From a virus: 26,205 nucleotides of DNA. Below are positions 1 through 26,170 of this stretch, piece by piece. The position numbers and the translations under genes are program-made. Within the stretch, counting starts at the first letter, position 1. The number at the start of each line of letters is the position of its first letter. The notes beneath the pieces were generated by a model that worked only from the letters and a program-made list of their open reading frames with translations, searched no databases and was not told the DNA's origin. Location: positions 1-26,205 of IMG/VR virus record IMGVR_UViG_3300025896_000171. One strand, given 5' to 3'.

Positions 1-315
1 ACTGTAGCGTCATAATAAGATGAGTGTAAAAGGGTACAGCGTGACCGCCCTAACTAGTAATAGTTGCTTTAGTTGAATGTGGCATTGGACTTCGGGTCAA
101 AATGTTAATCTTAGTCCGTAAAGGGCTAAGTGTGACTGAAGCATCAGGTCAAGTATTCATTATGTAGTTCATGTGTTAAGAAACAACACAAGTATCATAC
201 TAAATCGTGTTAAATCTAAAAATTGTAGTCTATTAAAAATTGAATGAGTAAGAGCGTAAGCGATACGAAATTCAAGAGCGAATGCTTCGCTCTCCCAAGT
301 TAATATAAATGAACA
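1..315. other. Non-coding stretch at left edge
   Basis: No reading frame of convincing length or start context exists on either strand here. An 18-codon ATG frame near position 20 lacks a ribosome binding site. The visible content is a weak hairpin (stems 172-177 and 185-190) and the stronger hairpin at 275-293, annotated separately. I looked for tRNA-like arms and did not find a consistent cloverleaf. In a genome packed this tightly, 315 bases or more without a gene is unusual. It may hold promoters or a small RNA, but nothing in the sequence proves this. Confidence 0.6.
275..293 (-). terminator. Hairpin downstream of the leftward gp26-like unit
   Basis: An 8-bp perfect stem (AGAGCGAA / TTCGCTCT) with a 3-base loop lies 23 bases beyond the stop of the 73-residue leftward frame. 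Read on the - strand it is followed by TTGAATTTC, which is T-rich but not a clean T-tract. It is a plausible terminator for the - strand unit. Confidence 0.45.
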
Positions 316-537
316 TTAACGACTACGAGCAAACCCCTTCTTGCCATACATCGCTTCTGTTCGTTCTTTTATTACTTCACTAAGCACAACCCGTTCGAGG
401 TGTGTCATGTCCCAAACTTCTTCGGGACTAACTGTACCCCATACACTTAACGTAGATACTTCTTTTATTAGGGCCCTTGCGTCGGCTTCGATAGTATTGA
501 TGAATCGCAGTATCTTTGCGTCATCAATACCGAGCAT
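316..537 (-). CDS. Short chaperone-like frame, probable -1 frameshift extension of the gp26-like protein
   Basis: This 73-residue frame starts with ATG at 537 and overlaps the stop of the gp26-like gene as TGATG. It could be reached by translational coupling or by a -1 slip at 552-558, which would give a fused product of about 371 residues. Its C-terminal half is charged and helical, with the pattern SPEEVWDMTHLERVVL followed by an Arg/Lys-rich end. That pattern is typical of tail-assembly chaperone extensions. It occupies the place of T4 gp51, a hub-assembly catalyst, but it is far shorter than T4 gp51 and I cannot show homology. The frame stays open upstream of the ATG as far as the slip site, which supports the fusion model. 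A free-standing small protein remains possible. Confidence 0.6.
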   Translation of the reverse strand: MLGIDDAKILRFINTIEADARALIKEVSTLSVWGTVSPEEVWDMTHLERVVLSEVIKERTEAMYGKKGFARSR

Positions 538-1430
538 CAAGAGCCTGCGCCGAAAAAACTTGTAGGATCAAACAACATATCCGAAGTAAACTGTTCTCCA
601 CAGTGGTCACATTTTACTTCTAATGTACGAGTAATACCGTAGTCTCCGAATCGTTTAATCTCAGCGTCAAGTCGTTCATTACTTGCACGGTCTAAGTTCT
701 TAACCCATTCTTGAATATGGGCTAAATTTGTAACTTGTACACCATCTGGCAATGTTACTGACATGATACTTTCGGCTAAAATATCCTGACTCAGTGCAAC
801 TAACTGATCGTATCCGCTGTTTGCAATTGCAGCTTTATCGTCGATTGTAGTTTTCTCATTTGCTTCTGCTGCTTGCATGTGGCGCATAGTTGTAAACTGT
901 ACACGTAGCAATTTACTTTGTGCTGCAAGAGAGTACGGCTTTAGTGCAACTGTTACGCCATTGCTCAATGTAACAACACCAATTTCTTCTGGAATTGCTT
1001 TCATTGTTGCTAATACACTACCAAGTCCAACTGTTACTCGTTGAGTTTTACCTTCGCTTGCATCACAGTTATGACTGATATCAAGTTCCATATCATCACC
1101 ATAACTTGCCATACGCATAGCAACTAAGATTGTATCAATGTCCGGTGCTGGAATTTCGTTTACATTTTTAATGTCGGGACATACTGATGCAATAACTTGC
1201 TTAAGAGCTTCACCGTTTAGCAGTGCGTCAGGATTCTTCAGAATGAGTTCGTCTTTTGCAGTCATCGGAAATACAGCCAACTCATTTGTGTCTGACATCT
1301 TAGGTGTATCTTTATAAAAACGACCACCACTTGGCAATGCAATATAAGTTCCAGGTTTTCGGTAATATTGAGCAAGTGGGTTTGCTGCAACCTGTTTAAC
1401 AGGCTTGTTTAGTGGGTTTGAGTTATCCAT
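537..1430 (-). CDS. 26: gp26-family baseplate hub / tail assembly protein
   Basis: This 297-residue protein fits the T4 gp26 baseplate family. Near the N-terminus it has a YYRKPGTYIALPSGGRFY segment, followed by PMTAKDELILKNPDALLNG and then DIDTILVAMRMASYG. The C-terminus carries a CDHCG knuckle and ends DPTSFFGAGS. T4 gp26 has about 208 residues, so this is a longer version. The start is set by AAGGA nine bases upstream of ATG at 1430. It is divergent from the tape measure gene and about 90 bases from it, the usual neighbourhood of tail chaperones that bind the tape measure. The FF of the terminal FFG is encoded by TTT TTC within a slippery heptamer, so a fraction of ribosomes may shift into the next frame. 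Hub component versus tail chaperone cannot be settled from sequence alone. Confidence 0.8.
   Translation of the reverse strand: MDNSNPLNKPVKQVAANPLAQYYRKPGTYIALPSGGRFYKDTPKMSDTNELAVFPMTAKDELILKNPDALLNGEALKQVIASVCPDIKNVNEIPAPDIDTILVAMRMASYGDDMELDISHNCDASEGKTQRVTVGLGSVLATMKAIPEEIGVVTLSNGVTVALKPYSLAAQSKLLRVQFTTMRHMQAAEANEKTTIDDKAAIANSGYDQLVALSQDILAESIMSVTLPDGVQVTNLAHIQEWVKNLDRASNERLDAEIKRFGDYGITRTLEVKCDHCGEQFTSDMLFDPTSFFGAGS
552..558 (-). other. Candidate -1 programmed frameshift site (T TTT TTC)
   Basis: Read on the - strand, the codons AGT TTT TTC contain the canonical X XXY YYZ heptamer T TTT TTC in the correct phase, five codons before the TGA of the gp26-like gene. After a -1 slip the codons are CGG CGC AGG CTC TTG ATG, with no stop, and run into the 73-residue downstream frame. 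This is the layout of the lambda G/GT frameshift. I did not identify a convincing downstream pseudoknot. Confidence 0.6.
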
Positions 1431-1521: not shown

Positions 1522-4500
1522 ATGACTCCAGAAGAAGCAGCAGCCATAATTGAAAAGTTTCTGTCAAAGTTAAGCACCATGACGGGGCAACTTGGTCGCG
1601 GCGATTCAAATACACCTGGTAGCAAAAAAACTGGTTCAATTCCAGGGGCCAAGAAGACTGCATCGTCAGACGCTGAATTGCGCGAACATGCTAAGTTACT
1701 TAAACAAGCAAATGATAAACTTGCTGCTGGCTTAAAGTTAAATGCTAAACAAGAAAAGGCAAAGCAAAAGGAAATTGATGATCTTGATGATCTTGCTAAG
1801 GCAACTGATAAGTTAGAAAAGTCAACTGACAAATTATCAGATAACTGGAATGATACAGGAAAGGCCTTTAAGCGATTTGGGTCATCAATGATCACTAGTA
1901 ATGTAGATGTAAAATCTGCAATGGGGTCATTGGGAAGTAGTTTATCATCTGGCGGCAGCGCCGTTGGTAAATTTGCAGCTGGAGTCTTAAGCGGTGCTGG
2001 ATACATGCTGGGTGGTATGCAAGAATTTGCAAAAAATGCTGCTGACATGGGCGCGTTTGCTGATCTTGGCACGTTTAGAGTTGGTTCAGTAACGCAGATG
2101 AAAATTCTCAGTGGCTTAGGAAATAGTTTTATTAAAGTAATTGAAGGCAGTAAAGGCGGATTTAAAGCATTTGGCGCTAACAGCGAAGATGCTGCTGAAA
2201 ATTTAAGCAATTTGTCACGTGGCTTAAAGTATGGCGGTAGTTATTTGAATACTGCAATGAAGAAAACTTTAGGTACTGATTTTGTTAAGAGTGTTAATCG
2301 TGCATCTAATGCAGCGGCTGCAATGGGATTAACAGATGAAGCTCGTGCTGACCTTATGGGATCACTGGCACAATCATCATCATTGGCCGCAACAAGCGAA
2401 GTAGATGCACAGCAACGATTAGTAAAGCAGTATGCTGATACATTGGAAAACACACGCAAATTAAGTAACGCATTTGGTATAAGCTCCACTGAAATTCTAA
2501 AAGCAATGGCTGAATTTAGAGGAACAAGTGCTGGCCAAGCAGGTGCATTAGCTGGTAATGAAGGTGCGCAAAATCTTGCACCAATTATTAAGGAACTGCT
2601 TAAAGAAAATGATCCAGAAAAAGTTGCAAAAATTGCATTGGGATTGTCGTCGGGTAATTATGCACTAGCTCAAGCAAACGTATCAAATGCAGCGGCAATG
2701 CCATTGCTTGATATGTTAAATCAATCGGTACAAGGTACTGCTGGCGGCACGAATACAGAGTTGTTGAATCAAAATCTGAAAAGCCAGCAAGCCTGGATGG
2801 AAAATTTCTCCAAAGAACGAATTGGTGAAAACTTCCAAGGCTTGCAAAATGCACAATATTCTGCACCAGGCATTGCAGCAGGTGTGTTTGCCAAGCGAAT
2901 GAGCGAAGGCGGCAAAGACGAAGGCAAAAAAGCCCCAGGGGTATCAGAAGCTGATAACATCAAGTCAATGAATACATTAGAAGCTGCACTGGGCAGTTTA
3001 CGTAGTGCAGTTCTTGGACTGACTGCAACAATGATTACAACATTTGGTACATTGGGCGCATTATTAGCAGGCGGCGCAATTGGCGGACTACTAAGTGGAG
3101 CAGGCAAAGGTGTAATGGGATCAATTGGTAGTAAAGTTGGCGGTATGTTTGGCAAAAAGCCAGAGCTACATGGCCCTCCGAAGCCTCCACACTTGCAAAC
3201 AGGCGGAATGTTTGATAAGATGAGCGGATCAGCTGGTAAAGGCATGGGTGTATTTGGTAGTTTCTTAGAACAAATTGGAAGCACTGGGGCAGTCAAAGGA
3301 GCGGCTACATTAGCTATACTTGGTGGCGCACTATTATTAGCTGGCAAAGGATTCAAAGAGTTTAATGAAGTCAATTGGGAAAGTGTAGTGAAAGGAACTG
3401 TGGCATTAGGCGGTTTAGTAGTCGTAACAAAAATTATGAGTGCCGCTTCAACTGCAATGATCAAAGGTGCAATGGCAATTGGCGTGCTTGGTGGCGCAAT
3501 GTGGGTTGCTGGTAAAGGTTTTAAAGAGTTCAATGACATTAATTGGGAAAGTTTAGCCAAAGCAGGCGTTGCTATTGCTGGGCTTGGCATAGCGGCAGTG
3601 GCTATGGGCGCATTTGCACCAGCAATAATTGTTGGATCAATTGCACTTGCTGCTCTTGGTGCTGCAATGTTTGTATTTGGCAAAGGTGTAAAAACTTTCA
3701 ACGAAGTAGAATGGGGTAGTTTAGCAAAAGGAATTGTTGGTATCGTAGGACTTGGCATCGCAGTCACTGCAATATCGCCTGCACTTGCTGTGATGTTAGT
3801 TGCAGCAATTCCATTGGTGGCATTTGGTGCTGCTCTTGGGATATTTGCAATGGGCATTAAACAATTCAATGACGTAGAATGGGGTAGTACCCTTAAGGGA
3901 ATGTTAGCAATTGTTGGACTTAGTGTTGCAATGGTAGCCATATCTCCGGCACTTGCTGTGATGCTAGTTGCATCTATTCCTCTACTTGCATTTGGCGCAG
4001 CTCTTGGAATATTTGCAATGGGTGTTAAACAGTTTAACGAAGTTGATTGGAGCAGTATTCCAAAAGGATTGGCAGCAATAACTGCACTTGCATTTGGCGT
4101 GTTGTTAATTTCACCAGCACTTGCAATTATGGCAATTGCATCTATTCCTCTACTTGCATTTGGTGCAGCACTTGGTGTATTTGCATTGGGTATTAAGCAA
4201 TTCAATGATGTTGACTGGGATAGTGCATTTAAAGGAGTGCTCGCAATTGGAGCATTAGGACTTGCAGTAACCGGATTAACAATACTGCTACCTGGTATTT
4301 TGTTAGGAAGTATTGCAATGACTGTATTAGCAGTATCAGTTACTGCATTGGGTATTGCACTAATCCCAGCAGCATTTGCAGCCAAGATGTTTGCAGATTC
4401 TCTTGAAACTGTCAGTAACATAAACGGGGATAACCTTATTAAGATAGGCGCCGGTCTTGGAGCCATTGGTGTAGGCATGGTTGCATTTGCAGCAGGCATG

Positions 4501-5046
4501 ATAGTTGGCACATCAAGTAGTGTATTAACTGGCATTATGAGTTTGTTTGGAGCTAAGAGTCCATTAGATAAGATAATGGAATTTGTACCATACGCAGATG
4601 CTATTAGTGCAATTGGCACAGGTATTAAGAATTTTGGAGAAGGAGTGCTTGCTGTACAACAAGGTACAGCAGATATGGACCCAGATATACTTGGCACTTT
4701 AAAAGATAAACTACTTGAATTTGCACAAGCAGGATCAAGCGATGAAATGAAATTAACTGCACAGTACCTGGCGCAGATTGGTGCATCACTAACTGGAATT
4801 AACAGTTTGGCAACAATGTCATTCCCGGATGTTGCAACAATGTCAACTCCAACTGATATGACTGCTAATTTAGGAATGACCGCTAATGCAACTGGCCCAA
4901 TTGGAAATATGTTGAATAATTCAGCAATTACACCAGACATTGTTGCACAACTAATGTCATACTTGTCAAGCATTGAAAACGATTTAGCGGCGATCCGCGG
5001 AAATACAAAATCAAACGGGAATGAAGCTCCGGTTAGATTAGCATAA
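1522..5046 (+). CDS. Tail tape measure protein with six 56-residue hydrophobic repeats
   Basis: This is a 1,174-residue protein. The first 120 residues are charged and coiled-coil-like, rich in Lys, Asp and Leu. Gly/Ala-rich segments follow, with hydrophobic stretches around 500-530. From residue 608 six copies of a 56-residue unit recur at an exact 168-base interval (anchors at 3343, 3511, 3679, 3847, 4015, 4183). Each carries GxKxFNxVxW and a paired hydrophobic segment. A degenerate copy appears near residue 957. Length, low-complexity hydrophobic character and position beside a probable chaperone pair are those of tape measure proteins, which set tail length and may insert into the host membrane. 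It is about twice the length of T4 gp29. AAGGA lies 11 bases before the ATG. No peptidoglycan hydrolase domain is visible. Confidence 0.8.
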   Translation: MTPEEAAAIIEKFLSKLSTMTGQLGRGDSNTPGSKKTGSIPGAKKTASSDAELREHAKLLKQANDKLAAGLKLNAKQEKAKQKEIDDLDDLAKATDKLEKSTDKLSDNWNDTGKAFKRFGSSMITSNVDVKSAMGSLGSSLSSGGSAVGKFAAGVLSGAGYMLGGMQEFAKNAADMGAFADLGTFRVGSVTQMKILSGLGNSFIKVIEGSKGGFKAFGANSEDAAENLSNLSRGLKYGGSYLNTAMKKTLGTDFVKSVNRASNAAAAMGLTDEARADLMGSLAQSSSLAATSEVDAQQRLVKQYADTLENTRKLSNAFGISSTEILKAMAEFRGTSAGQAGALAGNEGAQNLAPIIKELLKENDPEKVAKIALGLSSGNYALAQANVSNAAAMPLLDMLNQSVQGTAGGTNTELLNQNLKSQQAWMENFSKERIGENFQGLQNAQYSAPGIAAGVFAKRMSEGGKDEGKKAPGVSEADNIKSMNTLEAALGSLRSAVLGLTATMITTFGTLGALLAGGAIGGLLSGAGKGVMGSIGSKVGGMFGKKPELHGPPKPPHLQTGGMFDKMSGSAGKGMGVFGSFLEQIGSTGAVKGAATLAILGGALLLAGKGFKEFNEVNWESVVKGTVALGGLVVVTKIMSAASTAMIKGAMAIGVLGGAMWVAGKGFKEFNDINWESLAKAGVAIAGLGIAAVAMGAFAPAIIVGSIALAALGAAMFVFGKGVKTFNEVEWGSLAKGIVGIVGLGIAVTAISPALAVMLVAAIPLVAFGAALGIFAMGIKQFNDVEWGSTLKGMLAIVGLSVAMVAISPALAVMLVASIPLLAFGAALGIFAMGVKQFNEVDWSSIPKGLAAITALAFGVLLISPALAIMAIASIPLLAFGAALGVFALGIKQFNDVDWDSAFKGVLAIGALGLAVTGLTILLPGILLGSIAMTVLAVSVTALGIALIPAAFAAKMFADSLETVSNINGDNLIKIGAGLGAIGVGMVAFAAGMIVGTSSSVLTGIMSLFGAKSPLDKIMEFVPYADAISAIGTGIKNFGEGVLAVQQGTADMDPDILGTLKDKLLEFAQAGSSDEMKLTAQYLAQIGASLTGINSLATMSFPDVATMSTPTDMTANLGMTANATGPIGNMLNNSAITPDIVAQLMSYLSSIENDLAAIRGNTKSNGNEAPVRLA
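3343..4350 (+). repeat. Six tandem 168-bp repeats inside the tape measure gene
   Basis: The anchors (GGC AAA or GCA ATG before a GxKxFN motif) sit at 3343, 3511, 3679, 3847, 4015 and 4183, exactly 168 bases apart. The DNA has diverged between most copies, but copies four to six share runs such as the codons for PALAVML and IPLLAFGAAL. The exact spacing without indels suggests that repeat length is constrained. Confidence 0.85.
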
Positions 5047-11167: not shown

Positions 11168-11614
11168 ATGCCAAAATACGATGATTATGATGACACAGGG
11201 GCAACTGCCTCAATGAGTCCAGCTGCACAACAAAATATCAGTAATAAACTAGCCGCAGGTGGCTGGAGTTCTGCTGATGACGCAGCAAAAACAAAAGGCA
11301 TTGCTGACGCTGCTGCAATTACTACTGCTGGTGGAGCAACAACATTACTTGAAACTGATGATAAGTTTGGTAAGTTTGTAAACAGCAAATGGCGCCCACT
11401 TATGGCATTCCTTTATATGATTACTTGCTTCACTGACTTTGTGTTATTTCCAATTTTATGGTCAATACTACAGGCAGTCCAAGGAGGACAAGTAACAAGC
11501 CAGTGGAGCCCTCTTACACTACAAGGCGCCGGCTTATATCATTTAGCAATGGGCGCAGTATTAGGATTGGCTGCATATGGCAGAAGCCAAGAAAAGATTG
11601 CAGGTAAATCCTAA
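11168..11614 (+). CDS. Holin-like membrane protein
   Basis: This 148-residue protein has a soluble N-terminal half (about 1-70, Asp/Ala-rich) and two membrane segments: about 77-103 (after KWRPLMAF) and about 116-137 (LYHLAMGAVLGLAAYG). The arrangement, with WRP before the first helix and SPLTLQGAGLY before the second, matches the 3-TM holin family first described for gene transfer agents (GTA_holin_3TM, as I recall it). Holins open the inner membrane at the end of infection. ATG has TAGGAG nine bases upstream. Its stop overlaps the next ATG as TAATG, so it is coupled to a fibre-type protein. No endolysin or spanin gene lies nearby. A structural membrane protein cannot be excluded. Confidence 0.7.
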   Translation: MPKYDDYDDTGATASMSPAAQQNISNKLAAGGWSSADDAAKTKGIADAAAITTAGGATTLLETDDKFGKFVNSKWRPLMAFLYMITCFTDFVLFPILWSILQAVQGGQVTSQWSPLTLQGAGLYHLAMGAVLGLAAYGRSQEKIAGKS

Positions 11615-12759
11615 TGGCAATTAAGACGAATCATGCAACTGATTCATTGACACCTACGTCGGGTGTATTGGAAGTGAACGCAACTGGGGCAATTGCATTG
11701 CCAGTTGGACCAACAGCTGATCGTCCAATGATCAGCGCAGCAGGTTATATTCGGTTTGCTGATGAAATTGTAACACCAGAGTATTATGATGGTACAAACT
11801 GGCAAACTATCTCAAATAAAGAATATGTTGATAGCAGAGTAGGAAACTCTGGAACATCGCTAACTACGGTAATTGCCAATCTAACATTGGATGATCTTGC
11901 TGATGTTAACATAAATGCTCCTGGATCTAATCAATTACTATCATACGATACTGAACTTGGACAGTTTACAAATAAAACACAAGCCCTTGCAATCGTCACA
12001 CGTATGTTTGCAGGAGATGGAATCGCCATGACGTTTGATATTTTAACAAACGTTTCTGCAATTCAAAATTTAGTAGTAAGTATAAATGGTATTCAACAAG
12101 AACCATACTACAGCTACACATTAGTTGATGGTCATATTATCGCATTTGACGAATCACCAGCAGCTGGTGATAGAATTCAGATCAAAATTTTGAATGCAAC
12201 TGTATCAACTGATCGTGCAAGACCAAGAGTCCTTAACGTATCATATGGTGTAGTTGCACAGTTTACTACAATTACTATTGTAGCCACAGACATTATATAC
12301 GGAACAGGTGCCAAAATTGGCGGTCAGTCTATTACAAGAATTGACTATCCTGGTCAAGGAAGAATTCAACTTATGGTTGAAACAAGTCGCATGAGTGGTA
12401 TGCTCTGGCAGTATCCACAAGACTTAACATTGGTAGATACCTCTGGGAACGAATTCGCTTTCCCAAATTTAATAAACTACGGTGCCACCCACCCGCAGTG
12501 GATTGAATCTAATTCTTATATTGGAAGTTTTAAAGGTGGTAGTGTAATTAATTACACACTTCAGCTAAATAATGCTGTTAGTATAACAATAAACCCTGCT
12601 TATGCAGGTGAGACTGCTATTCCCTGGTTATCTATTAGCAACTCTAATATCGTAGGTACTGCCCCTATAAACAGTAGTCCTAGTCGATATGAATTCACAA
12701 TAACTGCAAGCAATGGAAGCGTTGATATAACGAAAAACTTCTGGCTACTTGTAATTTAA
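11614..12759 (+). CDS. Virion fibre/adhesin-type protein with Ig-like C-terminus
   Basis: This 381-residue protein opens with an N-terminal segment common in phage fibre proteins (RFADEIVTPEYYDGTNWQTI, then a KEYVDSRV helix start). Around 90-130 it has DLADVN...LLSYDTELGQF. At 132-194 a FxGDG...VSINGIQQEPYYSY...AAGDRIQIKI module follows, and the same pair of modules ends the 1,655-residue fibre encoded next. The last 80 residues fit a cadherin/He_PIG-like Ig fold (WLSISNSNIVGTAP, then YEFTITASNGSV). It starts inside the holin stop (TAATG). It is probably an external tail or capsid decoration. The exact position in the virion is not deducible. Confidence 0.75.
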   Translation: MAIKTNHATDSLTPTSGVLEVNATGAIALPVGPTADRPMISAAGYIRFADEIVTPEYYDGTNWQTISNKEYVDSRVGNSGTSLTTVIANLTLDDLADVNINAPGSNQLLSYDTELGQFTNKTQALAIVTRMFAGDGIAMTFDILTNVSAIQNLVVSINGIQQEPYYSYTLVDGHIIAFDESPAAGDRIQIKILNATVSTDRARPRVLNVSYGVVAQFTTITIVATDIIYGTGAKIGGQSITRIDYPGQGRIQLMVETSRMSGMLWQYPQDLTLVDTSGNEFAFPNLINYGATHPQWIESNSYIGSFKGGSVINYTLQLNNAVSITINPAYAGETAIPWLSISNSNIVGTAPINSSPSRYEFTITASNGSVDITKNFWLLVI

Positions 12760-12851: not shown

Positions 12852-15800
12852 ATGCCTATTATCAAAGCAAGATCAAGTTCGATTATCGATTCAGTTGATC
12901 TACGCGGGACACCAACAGTTGCTACAGCTACTGCAGGTTCCAGCACAACACAAGTTGCTTCTACTGCGTTCGTTAGCACAGGAATCAGTAACTTAGTCAA
13001 TTCTGCACCAGCAGTATTAGACACCCTATCAGAGTTGGCAACTGCTCTTGGTAGTGATGCCAATTTTGCAACAACAGTTGCAGCATCTATTGCAACAAAA
13101 GTATCAAGTAGCGGCGATGTAATGTCTGGCTTCTTGACATTACATGCAAATCCAGCTAACGACTTACATGCTGCTACTAAATTATACGTTGATGGTTTAA
13201 TCAACGCACAGATGATTTACAGTACAGATGATGTCCCAGAAGGTGTATTAAATTCATACTACCATACTGCACTTGTTCAAGCCGACATTGGTTTAACAAG
13301 TGACAACACAGCGGTATTGAGTTATGCTAACGGTCAATTCACTTACAACCACCCAACAAGTGATGGTGTATTAGAAGGCCAGACTAATCAGTACTTCACA
13401 CCAACCCGTGCTCGTGCTGCCATTAGTTTAAACAGTGATGACAATGGTATTTTAAGTTACGCTGGTAGCACTGGCGCAAGTGCTGGACAATTTACATTTG
13501 TAACTCCAAGCACAACAAAAATCACTGAAGGTACACAGTTGTACTTTACAACAGCTCGTGCTCGTGCTGCTGTTAGTGGTGGTAACAACATCAGCTATGA
13601 TTCAGCAACTGGTATTATCAGTTCTGTTGCCACAGTTGAAAGTGTCAATGGTCAAACTGGTGTTGTTGTATTAACAACTTCACACATTGATGAAGGTTCA
13701 CAGTTGTACTTTACAGCCGGTCGTGCAGTTACTGCCAACGCTGCTGCTGTTGCTGCTGTACAAGCTGCTGTTGATGCCGAAGCTATTGCAGCTCGTGCTG
13801 CTGAAGCAACATTGACAACTGACTTAGCAACTGAAGCTGCTCGTGCTATTGCTGCCGAAGGTGTATTGACAACTAATTTAGCTGCTGAAGCCACTCGTGC
13901 TGTTGCTGCCGAAGGCGTATTGACTGCTGCTATTGCAGAAGAACATGCTCACCACACAGCCGCTGAAACTACATTGACAGCTGACTTGGCTGCTGAAGCT
14001 GTTACTGCTCGTGCTGCTGAAGCCGGTTTAGCAAGTGACTTGGCTGCTGAAGCTGTTACTGCTCGTACTGCTGAAGCTGCTATTGCTAGCGATTTAGCCA
14101 TTGAAGTTACTGCACGTACCAATGGTGATACAACAAATGCAACTGCTATTGCTGCTGAAGCTACTACAGCCCGTGCTGCTGAAGGTGTATTGACCGCTGC
14201 TGTTGCCTCTGAAGCTACTACAGCCCGTGCTGCTGAAGCCGCATTGACAACTGACTTATCAGCCGAAGCTACTCGTGCAACTGCTGCTGAAGGCGTATTG
14301 ACTGCTGCTGTTGCTGCTGAAGCAACTGCTCGTGCTGCTGCTGTTACTGCTGAAGCAACTGCTCGTGCTGCTGGTGATACTGCATTGGGTGTTCGCATTG
14401 ACAACGTATTAAGCAACATTGACCCAGCTGCTCTTGATTCCTTAACAGAAATTATTGCTGCTTATGATGCTGCTGATGCAGGTTTACAACAAGCTATCAC
14501 TGATTTGGCAAGTGCAAACGCAGCCGCTATTGCTGCTGAAGCTGCTACACGCTTGGCTGCTGATGCTGCCCACGATACTGCTTTTGTTACAGAAGCCAGT
14601 GCTCGTGTTGCTGGTGATGATACAAATGCTGCTGCTGTAGTCGCCGAAGCTGCTCGTGCTGCTGCCGCCGAAACAACTAATGCAACTGCTATTGCTGCTG
14701 AAGCTACTACAGCTCGTGCTGCTGAAGCAACATTGACAACTAACTTAGCAAGCGAAGAAACTCGCGCAACTGCTGCCGAAGGTGTATTGACTGCTAACGC
14801 AATTGCTGAAGCTGGTTTACGCGAAGCTGGTGATGTTGCTAATGCTGCTGCTACTGCTGCTGAAGCTACTCGCGCAACTGCTGCCGAAGGCGTATTGACT
14901 ACTGCTGTTTCTACAGAAGTTGCTCGCGCTACTGCTGCTGAAGGCGTGTTGACAACTGACTTAGCAACTGAAGCTGCTCGTGCTGTTGCTGCTGAAGGCG
15001 TGTTGACTACTAACTTGGCTGCTGAAGTTGTTCGCGCAACTGCTGCTGAAACAACTAATGCAACTGCTATTGCTGCTGAAACTGCTCGTGCAACTGCTGC
15101 TGAAGTAGTAAACACTGCTGCAATTGCTGCTGAAGAAACTGCTCGTATTCTTGCCGATAGCGCAGAAGCATCTAACCGTGCTATTGCTGTAAGTGCAGAA
15201 GCTACTCGTGCTACTGCTGCTGAAACTGTATTGACAAATGCAGTAGCTGCTGAAGCTGCTCGTGCAACTGCTGCTGAAGGCGTATTGCAAGCCAATGTTG
15301 ACGCAGAAGCTGCTACACGTTTGGCTGCTGATGCTGCTGAAGAAACAGCACGTATTGCTGCTGTTGCTGCTGAAGAAGCTGCTCGCATCGCTGCTGACGG
15401 TGTATTGCAAGCTAATATTGATACAAACGCTGCTGCTTACATTGCTGCTGATACTGCATTAGGTGCTCGTATTGACAATGTTCTAAGCAATATTGATCCA
15501 GTTGCACTTGACTCATTGACAGAAGTTGTTGCTGCTTTCCAAGGTGCTGATAATACTATCAACGGTGCTATCACTTCATTGGCTGCTTCTGCTGCTGCCA
15601 ACTTGGCTGCTGAAGCTAGTCGCGCAACTGCTGCTGAAGGCGTGTTGCAAGCCAATATTGACGCAGAAGTTGTTGCTCGTACAGCTGATGTTGATGCTGA
15701 AGCTGCTGCTCGTATTGCTGATGTTGATGCTGAAGAAACTCGCGCTACTACTGCCGAAGGCGTATTAACCGCTGCCGTTGCTGCTGAAGCTACTACAGCT

Positions 15801-17819
15801 CGTGCTGCCGAAGGCGTATTGACTGCTGCTGTTGCTGCTGAAGAAGCTGCTCGTGTTGCTGCTGTTACTGCTGAAGAAGCTGCTCGTGTTGCTGGCGATG
15901 ATACATTGCAAGGTCAAATCTTTGAAAATGCTACTGCAATTACTGCCGAAGAAGCTGCTCGTATCGCTGGCGATGCAACAAATGCTGCTGCTGTCGTTGC
16001 AGAAGCCACTCGTGCAACTGCTGCTGAAGGTGCATTAACAACTGCATTGGCTGCTGAAGCTACTACAGCTCGCGCTGCTGAAGTTGCAAACGCTGCCGCG
16101 ATTGTTGCTGAAGAAACTCGTGCCACTGCTGCTGAAGTTGCTAATGCTACTGCAATTTCTACAGAAGCTACACGTGCCACTGCTGCTGAAGCTACATTAA
16201 CAGCCGCTGTTGCTGCCGAAGAAACTCGTGCCACTGCTGCTGAAGTTGCTAATGCTGCTGCAATTACTGCTGAAGCTGCTACCCGCGCTGCTGCCGACAC
16301 TGCTGGCGCAACTGCATTGTCAACTGAAACAGCTCGTGCTGTTGCTGCTGAACAAGCAAACACTGCTGCTATTGTTGCCGAAGAAACAGCTCGCATTGCT
16401 GCTGTAAGTACAGAAGCTGCTGCTCGTGCTGTTGCTGATACTGCATTGGGTGCTCGTATTGATGATGTATTAAGCAACATTGATCCAGCTGCTCTTGATT
16501 CCTTAACAGAAATTATTACTGCCTACAATGCTGCTGACTCTAGCTTAACACAAGCCATTAGTGATTTAGCAAGCGCAAGTGCTACGGCAACTGCAAACGA
16601 AGCTGCTACACGTTTATCTGCTGACAATGCACTATCAACTGCATTAGCTGCTGAAGTAAGTCGTGCAAGCACAGCCGAAGCGGCAAATGCAACTAACATC
16701 AGCCTTGAAGTTGCCGATCGTACAACTGCTGACACAACATTGCAAGCCAATATTGATGCTGAAGCTGCTACTGCTCGTGCTGCTGAAGGTGTATTGACTG
16801 CTGCTATTGCTGCCGAAGCCACTCGTGCCACTGCTGCTGAAGTTGCAAACACTGCTGCAATCGCTGCTGAAACTGCTCGTGCTACAACTGCTGAACAAGC
16901 AAATGCTGCTGCTGACGTAATTGAAGCTGCTGCTCGTGTTTCAGGTGACTTGGCTGTTCAAGCTAACGTTGACGCAGAAGCTACTGCTGCTCGTACTGCT
17001 GAATCTGCATTGGGTACTCGTATTGATACATTGAACACAGATAACATTGCTGAATTAAGCGGTGCTATTAACTTGTTCTTTACAGAAGGCCGCGCTAAGG
17101 CTTCTATCAGTAGTGGTGCAAATATCCAGTATAACAGTTCAACTGGTGTTATCAGCACATTGGCTGCGGTTCAAAGTGTTAACGGCTTAGATGGCGTTGT
17201 TACATTGACTACAGACAATGTATCCGATTCAACAGCAACCAACAAGTACTTTACAAACGCACAAGCTCGTAGTGCTGTTTCTTTAGTTAGTGACAACACT
17301 AGCATCTTAAGTTACAATGCAGGTACTGGTGCGTTTACATTTGCTGTTCCTTCAACAGATGCAATTGCAGAAGGTGCAGTAAATCTTTACTACACCGATG
17401 CTCGTGCAGATGGACGTATTGCTCTTGCTAATGTAGGTGATTTAGCCGACGTTGATACAAGCGGTACATTAAGTGATGGTTATACATTAGTTTGGAGTTC
17501 ATCACAAGGCAAGTTTGTGGCGCAGAACATTACAACTACTGTTATAACACAAAACTTTACTGGTGACGGCACAACTGCTTCGTTTAGTACAGGTGTTGAA
17601 GTTGGTTCAATCCAGAATACGCAAGTATTCGTTAACGGATTGGTACAAGCTCCAACTTACTCATACACAATGAGCACTGTAAACGGCGTATCAAGTATTG
17701 TGTTTGATGCTGCTCCGGAAGCTAACGACTTCATTATGGTTCGTTTAACACCAACAGTTACTTTAAGTGCTGGTGGTATCTTGAACCAAAATAGTGATAT
17801 TGATGGTGGTACATATTAA
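12852..17819 (+). CDS. Giant Ala/Glu-rich coiled-coil tail fibre
   Basis: This is a 1,655-residue protein. Residues 1-120 form a typical fibre attachment region (TTQVASTAFV, then VLDTLSELATALGSDANF, then ATKLYVDGLI). Residues 120-295 carry repeated modules built on LYFTxxRARAAxS and ISYDSATGII. Residues 296-1390 are a low-complexity coil of AAExTRATAAEGVLT-like units. The coil is interrupted three times by a conserved module (starting at about 514, 872 and 1201: RIDNVLSNIDP followed by ALDSLTEI). The C-terminal part returns to LYYTDARA modules and ends with the DLADV/GDG/VNG module shared with the protein at 11614. Trimeric coiled-coil fibres have this design. Ribosome binding site is GAGGA. 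No S74-type chaperone is present at its C-terminus. Its receptor and place on the virion are unknown. Confidence 0.85.
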   Translation: MPIIKARSSSIIDSVDLRGTPTVATATAGSSTTQVASTAFVSTGISNLVNSAPAVLDTLSELATALGSDANFATTVAASIATKVSSSGDVMSGFLTLHANPANDLHAATKLYVDGLINAQMIYSTDDVPEGVLNSYYHTALVQADIGLTSDNTAVLSYANGQFTYNHPTSDGVLEGQTNQYFTPTRARAAISLNSDDNGILSYAGSTGASAGQFTFVTPSTTKITEGTQLYFTTARARAAVSGGNNISYDSATGIISSVATVESVNGQTGVVVLTTSHIDEGSQLYFTAGRAVTANAAAVAAVQAAVDAEAIAARAAEATLTTDLATEAARAIAAEGVLTTNLAAEATRAVAAEGVLTAAIAEEHAHHTAAETTLTADLAAEAVTARAAEAGLASDLAAEAVTARTAEAAIASDLAIEVTARTNGDTTNATAIAAEATTARAAEGVLTAAVASEATTARAAEAALTTDLSAEATRATAAEGVLTAAVAAEATARAAAVTAEATARAAGDTALGVRIDNVLSNIDPAALDSLTEIIAAYDAADAGLQQAITDLASANAAAIAAEAATRLAADAAHDTAFVTEASARVAGDDTNAAAVVAEAARAAAAETTNATAIAAEATTARAAEATLTTNLASEETRATAAEGVLTANAIAEAGLREAGDVANAAATAAEATRATAAEGVLTTAVSTEVARATAAEGVLTTDLATEAARAVAAEGVLTTNLAAEVVRATAAETTNATAIAAETARATAAEVVNTAAIAAEETARILADSAEASNRAIAVSAEATRATAAETVLTNAVAAEAARATAAEGVLQANVDAEAATRLAADAAEETARIAAVAAEEAARIAADGVLQANIDTNAAAYIAADTALGARIDNVLSNIDPVALDSLTEVVAAFQGADNTINGAITSLAASAAANLAAEASRATAAEGVLQANIDAEVVARTADVDAEAAARIADVDAEETRATTAEGVLTAAVAAEATTARAAEGVLTAAVAAEEAARVAAVTAEEAARVAGDDTLQGQIFENATAITAEEAARIAGDATNAAAVVAEATRATAAEGALTTALAAEATTARAAEVANAAAIVAEETRATAAEVANATAISTEATRATAAEATLTAAVAAEETRATAAEVANAAAITAEAATRAAADTAGATALSTETARAVAAEQANTAAIVAEETARIAAVSTEAAARAVADTALGARIDDVLSNIDPAALDSLTEIITAYNAADSSLTQAISDLASASATATANEAATRLSADNALSTALAAEVSRASTAEAANATNISLEVADRTTADTTLQANIDAEAATARAAEGVLTAAIAAEATRATAAEVANTAAIAAETARATTAEQANAAADVIEAAARVSGDLAVQANVDAEATAARTAESALGTRIDTLNTDNIAELSGAINLFFTEGRAKASISSGANIQYNSSTGVISTLAAVQSVNGLDGVVTLTTDNVSDSTATNKYFTNAQARSAVSLVSDNTSILSYNAGTGAFTFAVPSTDAIAEGAVNLYYTDARADGRIALANVGDLADVDTSGTLSDGYTLVWSSSQGKFVAQNITTTVITQNFTGDGTTASFSTGVEVGSIQNTQVFVNGLVQAPTYSYTMSTVNGVSSIVFDAAPEANDFIMVRLTPTVTLSAGGILNQNSDIDGGTY
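13740..17020 (+). repeat. DNA-level repeat array in the giant fibre gene
   Basis: Short units built on GCTGCTGAAG plus CGTGC(T/A)ACTG recur over about 3.3 kb, coding for AAE.TRA.AAE.VLT units. Many stretches are almost identical at synonymous positions, so recent duplication or gene conversion is likely. The array is coding throughout and has no spacer-like unique segments of fixed size. Confidence 0.85.
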
Positions 17820-17930: not shown

Positions 17931-18431
17931 ATGCCAATTTTTCGCGGAAAAGAGTTTGTTAGCACCATATCAGACAGCAAGGATAGTGTCAGAGTAGCCA
18001 CGCGGTCGCATGTACCATTGCTTGCTGCAATTTCTATTATTGATGAAGTCAATCTAGTACATCAGGATCGTGTATTATTAGCTGGACAAACCAATACTGC
18101 TTACAACGGAATTTACATTTGGAATTCTGTAACTGGTAAACTAATTCGCGCAACTGATGCTGACTCAACAATTGAAGTATCAGGCGGCATGCGAATGTAT
18201 GTTGAAGAAGGCGCCACTAATGCGCAAACATATTGGACATTGACTACGCCCGGCGTAATAATTTTAGGAACAACTGGTTTAACCTTTGCGCGTGACAATC
18301 GTGTAGGCAACTTTGATCAATCAGGTACTCACGGTTCAGCAGCACTTACAAATATTCTTGTACTAGACGAATCGGGTCAAATCACCTCAATAACACCTGT
18401 ATCCATTAATTTAGATGGCGGAGAATTCTAA
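17931..18431 (+). CDS. Phage fibre/receptor-binding-type protein, 166 residues
   Basis: The protein consists of one module widely found in phage tail and fibre proteins. It runs as SVRVATRSHVPL, then DRVLLAGQTNTAYNGIYIW, RATDADS, VEEGATNAQTYWTLTT and LGTTGLTFAR, covering residues 20-130. The module normally sits inside larger fibre proteins, so a small stand-alone copy could be a tip, collar or accessory adhesin. ATG at 17931 has only a weak binding site (ACGAG, nine bases before). It is a separate unit, with a terminator before it, a candidate promoter in its leader and a small hairpin behind it. No catalytic residues are apparent. Confidence 0.7.
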   Translation: MPIFRGKEFVSTISDSKDSVRVATRSHVPLLAAISIIDEVNLVHQDRVLLAGQTNTAYNGIYIWNSVTGKLIRATDADSTIEVSGGMRMYVEEGATNAQTYWTLTTPGVIILGTTGLTFARDNRVGNFDQSGTHGSAALTNILVLDESGQITSITPVSINLDGGEF

Positions 18432-24021: not shown

Positions 24022-24400
24022 CAAAAAACGCACACCATCGTCTTAACTTTTTAAGATTAACAGCAGCGGACAATTGATACTCTGGGTGGTTGTTGCTTTG
24101 TAACATACTACGCATAAAAGCACCGTCAATGACGGTGCTTTTTATTAAGTGCATTTTTAATTCATGATCTGATACAACACTATTAAGAAGTGGATGTGTC
24201 CACGTTTCATCATTTATCAATCGTCGAAGTTCTAAAAACCAACGTTCGGTATACGCAATGTTATCTTTGTACAAATTATTAAGAAGTGGATTGTTAAGCC
24301 ACGTTGCCCAACATTGCTGAAAATTAAGCTGGCGGTGCGGCCCTGTGTATATTTCCAATGGTTGTTTGTTAATGGTGTTTTTAATTACTCGTAACGCCAT
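23963..24400 (-). CDS. Uncharacterised protein, convergent with the glycosyltransferase gene
   Basis: This 145-residue frame starts with ATG at 24400, 20 bases inside the end of the Nudix gene, and ends within the convergent glycosyltransferase gene. Composition is protein-like, with aromatic-rich and basic patches (CWATWLNNPLLNNLY, TERWFLELRRLI, LKKLRRWCAFFV) and no low complexity. I recognise no family. A strong bidirectional terminator hairpin lies inside it at 24117-24143, encoding KSTVIDGAF. Transcripts ending there would lack the last 50 codons. Either the gene is real and read through the hairpin, or only its upstream part is translated, or the frame is fortuitous. Confidence 0.5.
   Translation of the reverse strand: MALRVIKNTINKQPLEIYTGPHRQLNFQQCWATWLNNPLLNNLYKDNIAYTERWFLELRRLINDETWTHPLLNSVVSDHELKMHLIKSTVIDGAFMRSMLQSNNHPEYQLSAAVNLKKLRRWCAFFVSLPDSLETLADLNAQSRD
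24117..24143. terminator. Bidirectional intrinsic terminator between convergent genes
   Basis: A 12-bp perfect stem AAAAGCACCGTC / GACGGTGCTTTT with an AAT loop has A/T-runs on both arms, so it can act in both directions. It lies 96 bases after the glycosyltransferase stop. It is also inside the - strand frame 23963-24400, where it is read in frame. Confidence 0.85.
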
Positions 24401-24812
24401 TTAGCAAACCTTCTAACGATTCTTTAAAGCCACGACTGCTAAACATTTTTGCAGTATTACGATGCAGCGGTTGCGGCCATTCCCAGAGATTAACCCAGCA
24501 GTAGCCAGCACTTTCCTCATCTATCATAGGAATAAATTCGTCTTCGCATAAAATCAAATAACTAACATGGCGAAAGCGTTTATCACGGGTGGTAAACGTG
24601 TATACGTGACTCATTGCAATTGTATTAGGAACACCTGGAAAGCCAAGTTCTTCACATAGCTCACGCTTTAGCCCATTAAGATCACCCTCGTCGCCATCTA
24701 ACTTACCTCCCCACAATCCCCAACACATGCTATGTGTTTCCGACGGGCTACGAAGTTGCATCATAACCCTGCCGGTATTTTTACTTACAATTAATGCGCC
24801 AACAGCTCTCAT
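24381..24812 (-). CDS. Nudix hydrolase
   Basis: This 143-residue protein carries a complete Nudix box: G36-x5-E42-x7-R50-E51-x2-E54-E55-x-G57 within GKLDGDEGDLNGLKRELCEE and the following LGF. The preceding WGLWGGK and the N-terminal strand RAVGALIVSKNTGRVMMQLR fit the fold. Nudix enzymes cleave nucleoside diphosphates linked to another group (for example oxidised dNTPs, NADH, ADP-ribose or capped RNA); the substrate here is not evident. T4 also encodes a Nudix enzyme (NudE), though not beside gene 15. It starts eight bases after the gp15 stop and overlaps the next frame by 20 bases, so it is cotranscribed with tail genes. Its binding site is weak (GTAAG). Confidence 0.92.
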   Translation of the reverse strand: MRAVGALIVSKNTGRVMMQLRSPSETHSMCWGLWGGKLDGDEGDLNGLKRELCEELGFPGVPNTIAMSHVYTFTTRDKRFRHVSYLILCEDEFIPMIDEESAGYCWVNLWEWPQPLHRNTAKMFSSRGFKESLEGLLNGVTSN

Positions 24813-24820
24813 ATTCTTAC

Positions 24821-26170
24821 TTAGTTTACAATGCGCCAGTAACCCTGCTCGAAGATACCTTCAAGTGCAAGTACCCAATCAGTTCCTGTAAAATATAACT
24901 TGGCCATTGTATTTGCATTGGTAGTATATGCAACAGAGTTAACAGCACTTGCATCAAAGCTAACAATCCAATTGCTACCATTGTATTCAATGATATCATT
25001 TGCATCAGCAACAAGATTCCCCCACATGCTATTTTGTACAACTGACTTAGTTAGTAAATAACGCTGCCCTGGCGCAACTGCTGGAATGTTTCCATTACCT
25101 GGGTGGCTACCAGTTGGGTCAATAATACCATTAATCATTGTAATAGTATCAGTTGGCAATGTTGACAGATCAGTGGTGTATGACAACACATTTACGTTTC
25201 CTGGTACTTCTGTAATTTTTAAAATTACTTCATGTGCATTACTAATATCGCCAAGCTTCAATCTAATTTCTGTAATGCCATTGTGCATACCACCGTAATG
25301 ACTAAAGTGATCGGCCCAACTTAATTTGGCGCCATCACCGCCTGAGGCTGATGTATCAGAATTGTTACTGTTTAGTAGTTGAATAAAGTCATCAGTGACT
25401 CGAATATGCCTATCCTCAAACGTAATCCATTGACGGCTTGAAGGAGCATTATTGTTAATAACAATGTCGTCAATAAATCCGTAGTTTGCATCTACATTAT
25501 TGATGATGCTGTGAATAAGCACCTGTCGCTTGACCTTGGCAGGCGGCGTTAAGAAAATTGGTAATTGGAAGATTAAACTTGCAACATCAATGATATCATC
25601 AGTACCTTGCGGAATGCTACGTGCAGTCCATGTAATGTTTATAAGTTCAACAACTGCTAAACTTGTCCAGTCATACGGATTTTGGCTGCTTTGCAAGTTA
25701 ACTGAAGGATTAAACAGCAATAAGATTTGTTCCAATAGCTGTAGCTTTTGTTCAGTATTACTGGTCCAAATATCTACGTTAATTGTCAAATCAAACGGGA
25801 TAGGAGCATGCCGCTCTAGTGTATAAGTTTCACCAACTTGGTCTTGATAATTCCCAGCAGCTGGATCATATTGCTTTTCGTAAATCTGCACACTATCTTC
25901 AAACGACGGCGTCATTCTACGTTCTGCATTTGGTAACAGTTCTGCAATATAGCAACTAATAGCAGGCACACTTAACATTGTGTTCTCACTATTATTACGA
26001 AGTATGTGCTGACTCATACGAGTAGTGTCGCCGTAACGAACAGGAACCTGATGATAGTTGTCAAGTCCGTTTGCATCTTTGCCCATCTTTACACTGAACC
26101 CACCAAACAGTCTCATGAACTGTAGTAACCAACGTCTTATTTGTTGATCATAAAAATAGGACTGGGCCAT
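24821..26170 (-). CDS. 15: Tail sheath stabiliser / completion protein (T4 gp15 family)
   Basis: This 449-residue protein has the gp15 signatures of T4-like phages: YDQQIRRWLLQFMRLFGGF at the start, VPVRYGDTTRMSQHILRNNS, ERHAPIPFDLTINVDIWTSN followed by TEQKLQLLEQILLLFNPS, then DWTSLAVVELINITWTAR and FLTPPAKVKRQ. gp15 forms the ring that caps tube and sheath and meets the head neck. It is longer than T4 gp15 (272). The extra C-terminal region (about 270-449; GQRYLLTK, NDIIEYNGSNWIVSFD, GYWRIVN) resembles the extension I remember from cyanophage versions. ATG has GAGGAG upstream and overlaps the stop of the preceding gene as TAATG. Confidence 0.88.
   Translation of the reverse strand: MAQSYFYDQQIRRWLLQFMRLFGGFSVKMGKDANGLDNYHQVPVRYGDTTRMSQHILRNNSENTMLSVPAISCYIAELLPNAERRMTPSFEDSVQIYEKQYDPAAGNYQDQVGETYTLERHAPIPFDLTINVDIWTSNTEQKLQLLEQILLLFNPSVNLQSSQNPYDWTSLAVVELINITWTARSIPQGTDDIIDVASLIFQLPIFLTPPAKVKRQVLIHSIINNVDANYGFIDDIVINNNAPSSRQWITFEDRHIRVTDDFIQLLNSNNSDTSASGGDGAKLSWADHFSHYGGMHNGITEIRLKLGDISNAHEVILKITEVPGNVNVLSYTTDLSTLPTDTITMINGIIDPTGSHPGNGNIPAVAPGQRYLLTKSVVQNSMWGNLVADANDIIEYNGSNWIVSFDASAVNSVAYTTNANTMAKLYFTGTDWVLALEGIFEQGYWRIVN

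Follow-up and report, generated by a model that had tools for sequence, protein, structure and literature searches.

The gp26-like gene of the window, as we call the whole analysed stretch of 26,205 bases, very probably yields two products from one start, a TAC-N/TAC-NC pair of the G and GT type, by a -1 slip at the heptamer T TTT TTC. The features concerned are listed in Table 1. On the minus strand the gene ends ACA AGT TTT TTC GGC GCA GGC TCT TGA, with four sense codons lying between TTC and TGA. The -1 frame reads CGG CGC AGG CTC TTG ATG CTC... and closes at the TAA at position 316, so that the fusion of the 0 frame with the -1 extension (the predicted long product, TAC-NC) would have 371 aa. 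The original prediction had placed the heptamer in the right phase shortly before TGA, with the -1 frame open into a 73-residue frame and products of about 371 and 297 residues; these readings proved exact. The sequence TTTTTTC is rare in the window, with 2 occurrences on both strands versus 8.1 expected.

Table 1. Positions of the chaperone gene, the putative frameshift elements and the tape measure gene in the window
Feature	Position	Strand	Basis
gp26-like 0-frame gene, 297 aa, predicted short product (TAC-N)	537..1430	-	PF12322 and phrog_150 matches
Slippery heptamer T TTT TTC, in phase (X XXY YYZ)	552..558	-	Direct reading and conservation in relatives
Spacer from heptamer to stem, 6 nt	546..551	-	Alignment
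Stem 5' arm GGCUCUUG	538..545	-	Invariant in 14 window-clade sequences; pairing
Stem 3' arm CAAGGGCC, one G-U pair in the window	472..479	-	Pairing
0-frame stop TGA, overlapping the ATG (535-537) of the -1 frame	537..539	-	Direct reading
-1 frame extension, 78 codons and TAA (putative T-type domain)	316..552	-	Open frame, selection, helical model, profile matches
Tape measure protein gene, transcribed away from the chaperone gene	1522..5046	+	phrog_4372, tail length tape measure, E 6.3e-28

Profile search assigned the 0-frame protein to PF12322 (T4_baseplate; T4 gp26/gp51) over residues 52-293 (E 1.4e-14), with 54.8 bits against a curated cut-off of 24.5. It also matched phrog_150 (baseplate hub; E 1.2e-18). 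The gene carries an in-phase heptamer near its 3' end and an open -1 frame, both conserved, as in frameshifting tail assembly chaperones of the G/GT type. The 73-codon frame has its own ATG, in the TGATG at 539..535. From the window alone, translational coupling, in which this frame is a separate gene started from that ATG and no frameshift occurs, is therefore equally possible, and it is the relatives that decide.

We compared the locus with 80 uncultured relatives, 13 named phages with large genomes, and the gp26 regions of six more phages (S-PM2, P-SSM2, HTVC008M, DLP6, KVP40 and phiW-14); L030 was excluded, its gp26 frame not reaching the slip site. An in-phase slippery heptamer was found near the gene end in 99 of 99 analysed loci, at identities down to about 25%. 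The -1 frame was open for 57-81 codons in the analysed loci whose contig was long enough. The codon preceding the T-heptamer encoded S, N, T, H, D, R, Y or A, and its third base was always T. The 0-frame stop (TGA, TAA or TAG) varied in position from 0 to about 11 sense codons past the heptamer, and the -1 frame stayed open. The original prediction held that the slip site could be family-wide and that gp26-family genes should retain the heptamer and the open -1 frame at the DNA level; the relatives analysed, named phages included, bear this out. The contrary pattern, loss of T TTT TTC with both frames kept, was seen only in four uncultured loci (L042, L043, L058 and L059), which read GTA AAT TTT TCC and in which the overlapping in-phase heptamer A AAT TTT survives. 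The one exception is Vi01 (L108, Ackermannviridae; record 46764-47700), which has a T-like -1 frame after gp26 and the junction GAA ATT TTC ATT TAA, with no canonical heptamer.

A Shine-Dalgarno-like element before the slip site is known for dnaX. Purine-rich sequences of this type (GGAGGG, GAGGG, AGAGG) were observed about 8-12 bases 5' of the heptamer in L103, L104, L106 and L109, which are cyanophages, HTVC008M and KVP40; no such element precedes the heptamer in the window clade.

Phe-Phe is nearly invariant in the gp26 family, and Phe is more often encoded by TTT than by TTC. The heptamer might accordingly be a by-product of the conserved terminal Phe-Phe, with a downstream frame that is open by chance or decayed. 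However, the codon choice is improbable on this account. The 99 loci fall into 15 clusters of less than 40% identity, and T TTT TTY would arise by synonymous choice alone with P about 5e-8 (15 of 15 clusters at 40% identity) or about 2e-12 (23 of 23 clusters at 50% identity), values that count only the synonymous choices (third base T before, TTT and not TTC) with codon usage as the null and that treat clusters as independent, which is an approximation. The extension, moreover, evolves as a protein and matches gp51. We consider the chance of a by-product negligible.

Slippage could also occur in transcription, if RNA polymerase slipped at the run of T and some of the messages gained an extra U. 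Runs of 7-8 T do exist in the sub-clade L018-L029, but most members have six T. The four loci with A AAT TTT have five T after AAA, which is consistent with tRNAs slipping in tandem at A AAU UUU but not with a slip of the polymerase, and a stem behind a 6-nt spacer fits a ribosomal stimulator. Polymerase slippage is thus extremely unlikely.

In the window clade the -1 frame had a pN/pS of 0.17 and a third-position excess, equal to the 0-frame gene. The extension is therefore under selection as a protein. The model of the window extension was helical (mean pLDDT 87). A PDB fold search with this model gave no match, and Pfam, PHROGs and NCBIfam did not recognise the window extension. A Blast search of named phages with the 73-aa frame alone also gave no matches; the link runs only via the upstream gene.

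Translational coupling finds some support in existing annotation, which gives S-PM2, KVP40 and other phages a small 'gp51' gene in its own right. The S-PM2 'gp51' and KVP40.0327, both small genes after gp26, represent the same -1 extension behind an in-phase T TTT TTC, but are annotated as free-standing genes, unlike the fusion proposed for the window. In 37 of 98 extensions, however, the first 30 codons contain no ATG, GTG or TTG, and the PA5oct extension has no start codon at all in 73 codons; free-standing translation thus cannot be the general explanation. The wider window clade conserves x-R-L-L, the residues right after the slip and 5' of the ATG, even where the 0 frame has already ended. 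Coupling would also leave the persistence of the heptamer and the stem without a reason, and the same domain is fused in T4 gp51. We regard coupling in place of a frameshift as very unlikely. Some coupled starts could nevertheless occur at the TGATG of the window, so part of the short frame could arise in this way.

An RNA stem downstream of the heptamer, which had not been noticed in the original prediction, probably assists the slip. The conserved stem has 8 bp (GGCUCUUG/CAAGAGCC), starts 6 nt past the heptamer and encloses a loop of about 57 bases. Because both arms code in the -1 frame, close relatives alone are no proof of a stem. In a protein-guided alignment of 26 distinct sequences from the wider window clade, 96% of cells were paired in the stem register, compared with at most 65% after sliding by 1 to 4 bases. 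Compensatory, double-sided changes were found at three stem pairs, among them C-G to U-A in L035/L036 and G-C to U-A in L084. Two loci, L031 (GGCUCCUG/CAGGGGCC) and L074 (GGCUUCUG/CAGAAGCC), have changed pairs and a shifted 3' arm with complete pairing. When viral contigs were scanned with only the heptamer and the 5' arm as anchors, 31 distinct loci proved usable, some overlapping the first set. The 3' arm was present in 25 of these versus 1.6% by chance, and the -1 frame was open for 56-81 codons in all 31. Much of the L038-type clade and several jumbo phages had a weak stem or none, and cyanophages had other hairpins at similar spacing. For the window sequence, unconstrained folding marginally favoured another structure (-31.9 vs -31.3 kcal/mol); when the six spacer bases were left out, the conserved stem was the best fold. 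Rfam contained no frameshift element at the locus.

T4 gp26 and gp51 are both full-length PF12322 proteins (E 9e-64 and 4e-52), with some 48 additional residues in gp51. In hhalign comparisons the cyanophage extension matched the gp51 C-terminus (96%, E 1.8e-9), and the window-type extension matched both the cyanophage extension (E 6.6e-6) and the gp51 C-terminus (E 6.8e-5). Fusing both frames of P-SSM2 raised its phrog_150 score from 275 to 321 bits. Of the 282 phrog_150 positions, the P-SSM2 fusion covered 5-278 and T4 gp51 covered 13-280; the match ended at 232 for the P-SSM2 0-frame protein and at 235 for T4 gp26. T4 gp26 thus ends where the short product ends, and gp51 carries the extension in frame. 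By these comparisons T4 gp51 is the equivalent of the frameshift product and gp26 that of the short product. The window gene has the make-up of a T4-type long chaperone (gp51-like; PF12322 with a C-terminal helical extension) only through its -1 frame. The existing annotation of KVP40.0327 already notes similarity to the C-terminus of T4 gp51.

T4 has two genes, 26 and 51, where the window has one frameshifted gene; gene 51 is collinear with 27-28-29 and gene 26 is divergent. Two genes are also present in 44RR, an RB49-type phage, an Acinetobacter phage and Klebsiella KM3. In the tree, gp26 and gp51 of the two-gene phages formed one group (93/98) that excluded the frameshifting lineages, and KVP40 adjoined this group weakly (68/40). 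This grouping fits a duplication within Straboviridae. We think it likely that the ancestral state of the T4 superfamily was frameshifting at T TTT TTC, with a covarying stem at 6-nt spacing in many lineages, and that T4 is derived, duplication and fusion (26, 51) having replaced the frameshift within Straboviridae after the KVP40 split.

The chaperone and tape measure genes of the window read outward from a common 91-bp gap (1431-1521), which confirms the divergent arrangement claimed originally. G/GT genes are usually, though not essentially, collinear with and directly upstream of the tape measure gene; in the window the genes are adjacent but divergent. S-PM2 has gp26, the extension and a large protein with a tape measure match in collinear order, that is, the order G-T-tape measure. 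Together with the correspondence of the fusion to T4 gp51, this supports the original assignment of the gp26-like protein as a G-type chaperone and of the short frame as its T-type extension. In lambda G/GT, too, a -1 slip takes place at a heptamer shortly before the first frame ends, the second frame is small, and there is a link to the tape measure and tail assembly. The window gene differs from it in belonging to PF12322, in its larger N domain and in being divergent from, not upstream of, the tape measure gene.

Beyond the tape measure gene lie homologues of the gp20 portal, a gp21-type protease and the gp23 major capsid protein, which mark the window, a virus record of 26205 bases, as a fragment of a T4-superfamily genome. 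No T4-type late promoter (TATAAATA) was found anywhere in the window. Just past the end of the -1 frame, a hairpin AGAGCGAA-GCA-TTCGCTCT (270-300, minus strand) may be a terminator; no clear T run follows it, and it was not in the terminator scan output. Decoration-type and Ig-like domains (phrog_2647; He_PIG) occur in structural genes at 17931-18431 and 11614-12759, beside a 1655-aa tail fibre-like protein (12852-17819). A tail sheath-family protein (phrog_11196) is encoded at 24381-26170 on the minus strand, with a MutT/NUDIX hydrolase gene directly behind.

The slip site, the open and selected -1 frame, the stem and the equivalence to gp26 and gp51 are all shown at the sequence level, and we infer slippage at the ribosome and the chaperone role. 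Most ribosomes would read the 0 frame to TGA and make the 297-aa gp26-like chaperone. Some would slip back one base with two tRNA-Phe on T TTT TTC, assisted by the RNA stem 6 nt downstream, and would read 78 more codons to give the 371-aa protein, extended by a helical domain. The short and long chaperones would then work on the tape measure protein and bring in tube subunits. T4 and its close kin make the same two products from genes 26 (short) and 51 (long, fused). T4 gp26 and gp51 have been classed as chaperones of hub assembly; gp51 is needed for assembly and is not in the particle (PMC3004832). The N-domain model (mean pLDDT 83) had no match with E < 1 in a PDB fold search, known tail chaperones included, and fold comparison did not reveal homology to lambda G or HK97 gp13. 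Because fold search does not link the N domain to solved tail chaperones such as HK97 gp13, the case for the proposed chaperone role is built on T4 genetics, on architecture and on cited work.

G-T frameshifting has been described as widely conserved 'except T4' (Atkins et al. 2016; PMC5009743). Vladimirov, Gautam and Davidson 2022 (Virology 566:9-15) is cited for poly-T slip sites in T4-like TAC-N genes, and for some T4-like phages having a short gene and a fused long gene instead (PMC12846349, PMC10885494). As far as that work is represented in the papers citing it, the window gene seems to be of the same kind as its T4-like TAC-N/TAC-NC genes. The principle is thus known and our locus is a further member; the frameshift originally predicted is supported, but, going by those citations, is not new in kind. 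In the literature searched we found no description of the stem with its covariation, of A AAT TTT as a replacement, of extensions lacking a start codon or of the divergent gene order in jumbo and uncultured lineages, though the 2022 paper may cover them. What we add may be the jumbo (RaK2/PA5oct/Atu_ph07 type) and uncultured lineages, the covarying stem and the placement divergent from the tape measure gene.

With these findings, T4 relatives would no longer count as exceptions to a rule of tail assembly that is nearly universal. Small genes annotated as 'hypothetical' or 'gp51' behind gp26 are most likely not genes in their own right, and their annotation would be corrected in many phages. 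The findings also support a role as a short and long chaperone pair for the long-unexplained gp26 and gp51 of T4.
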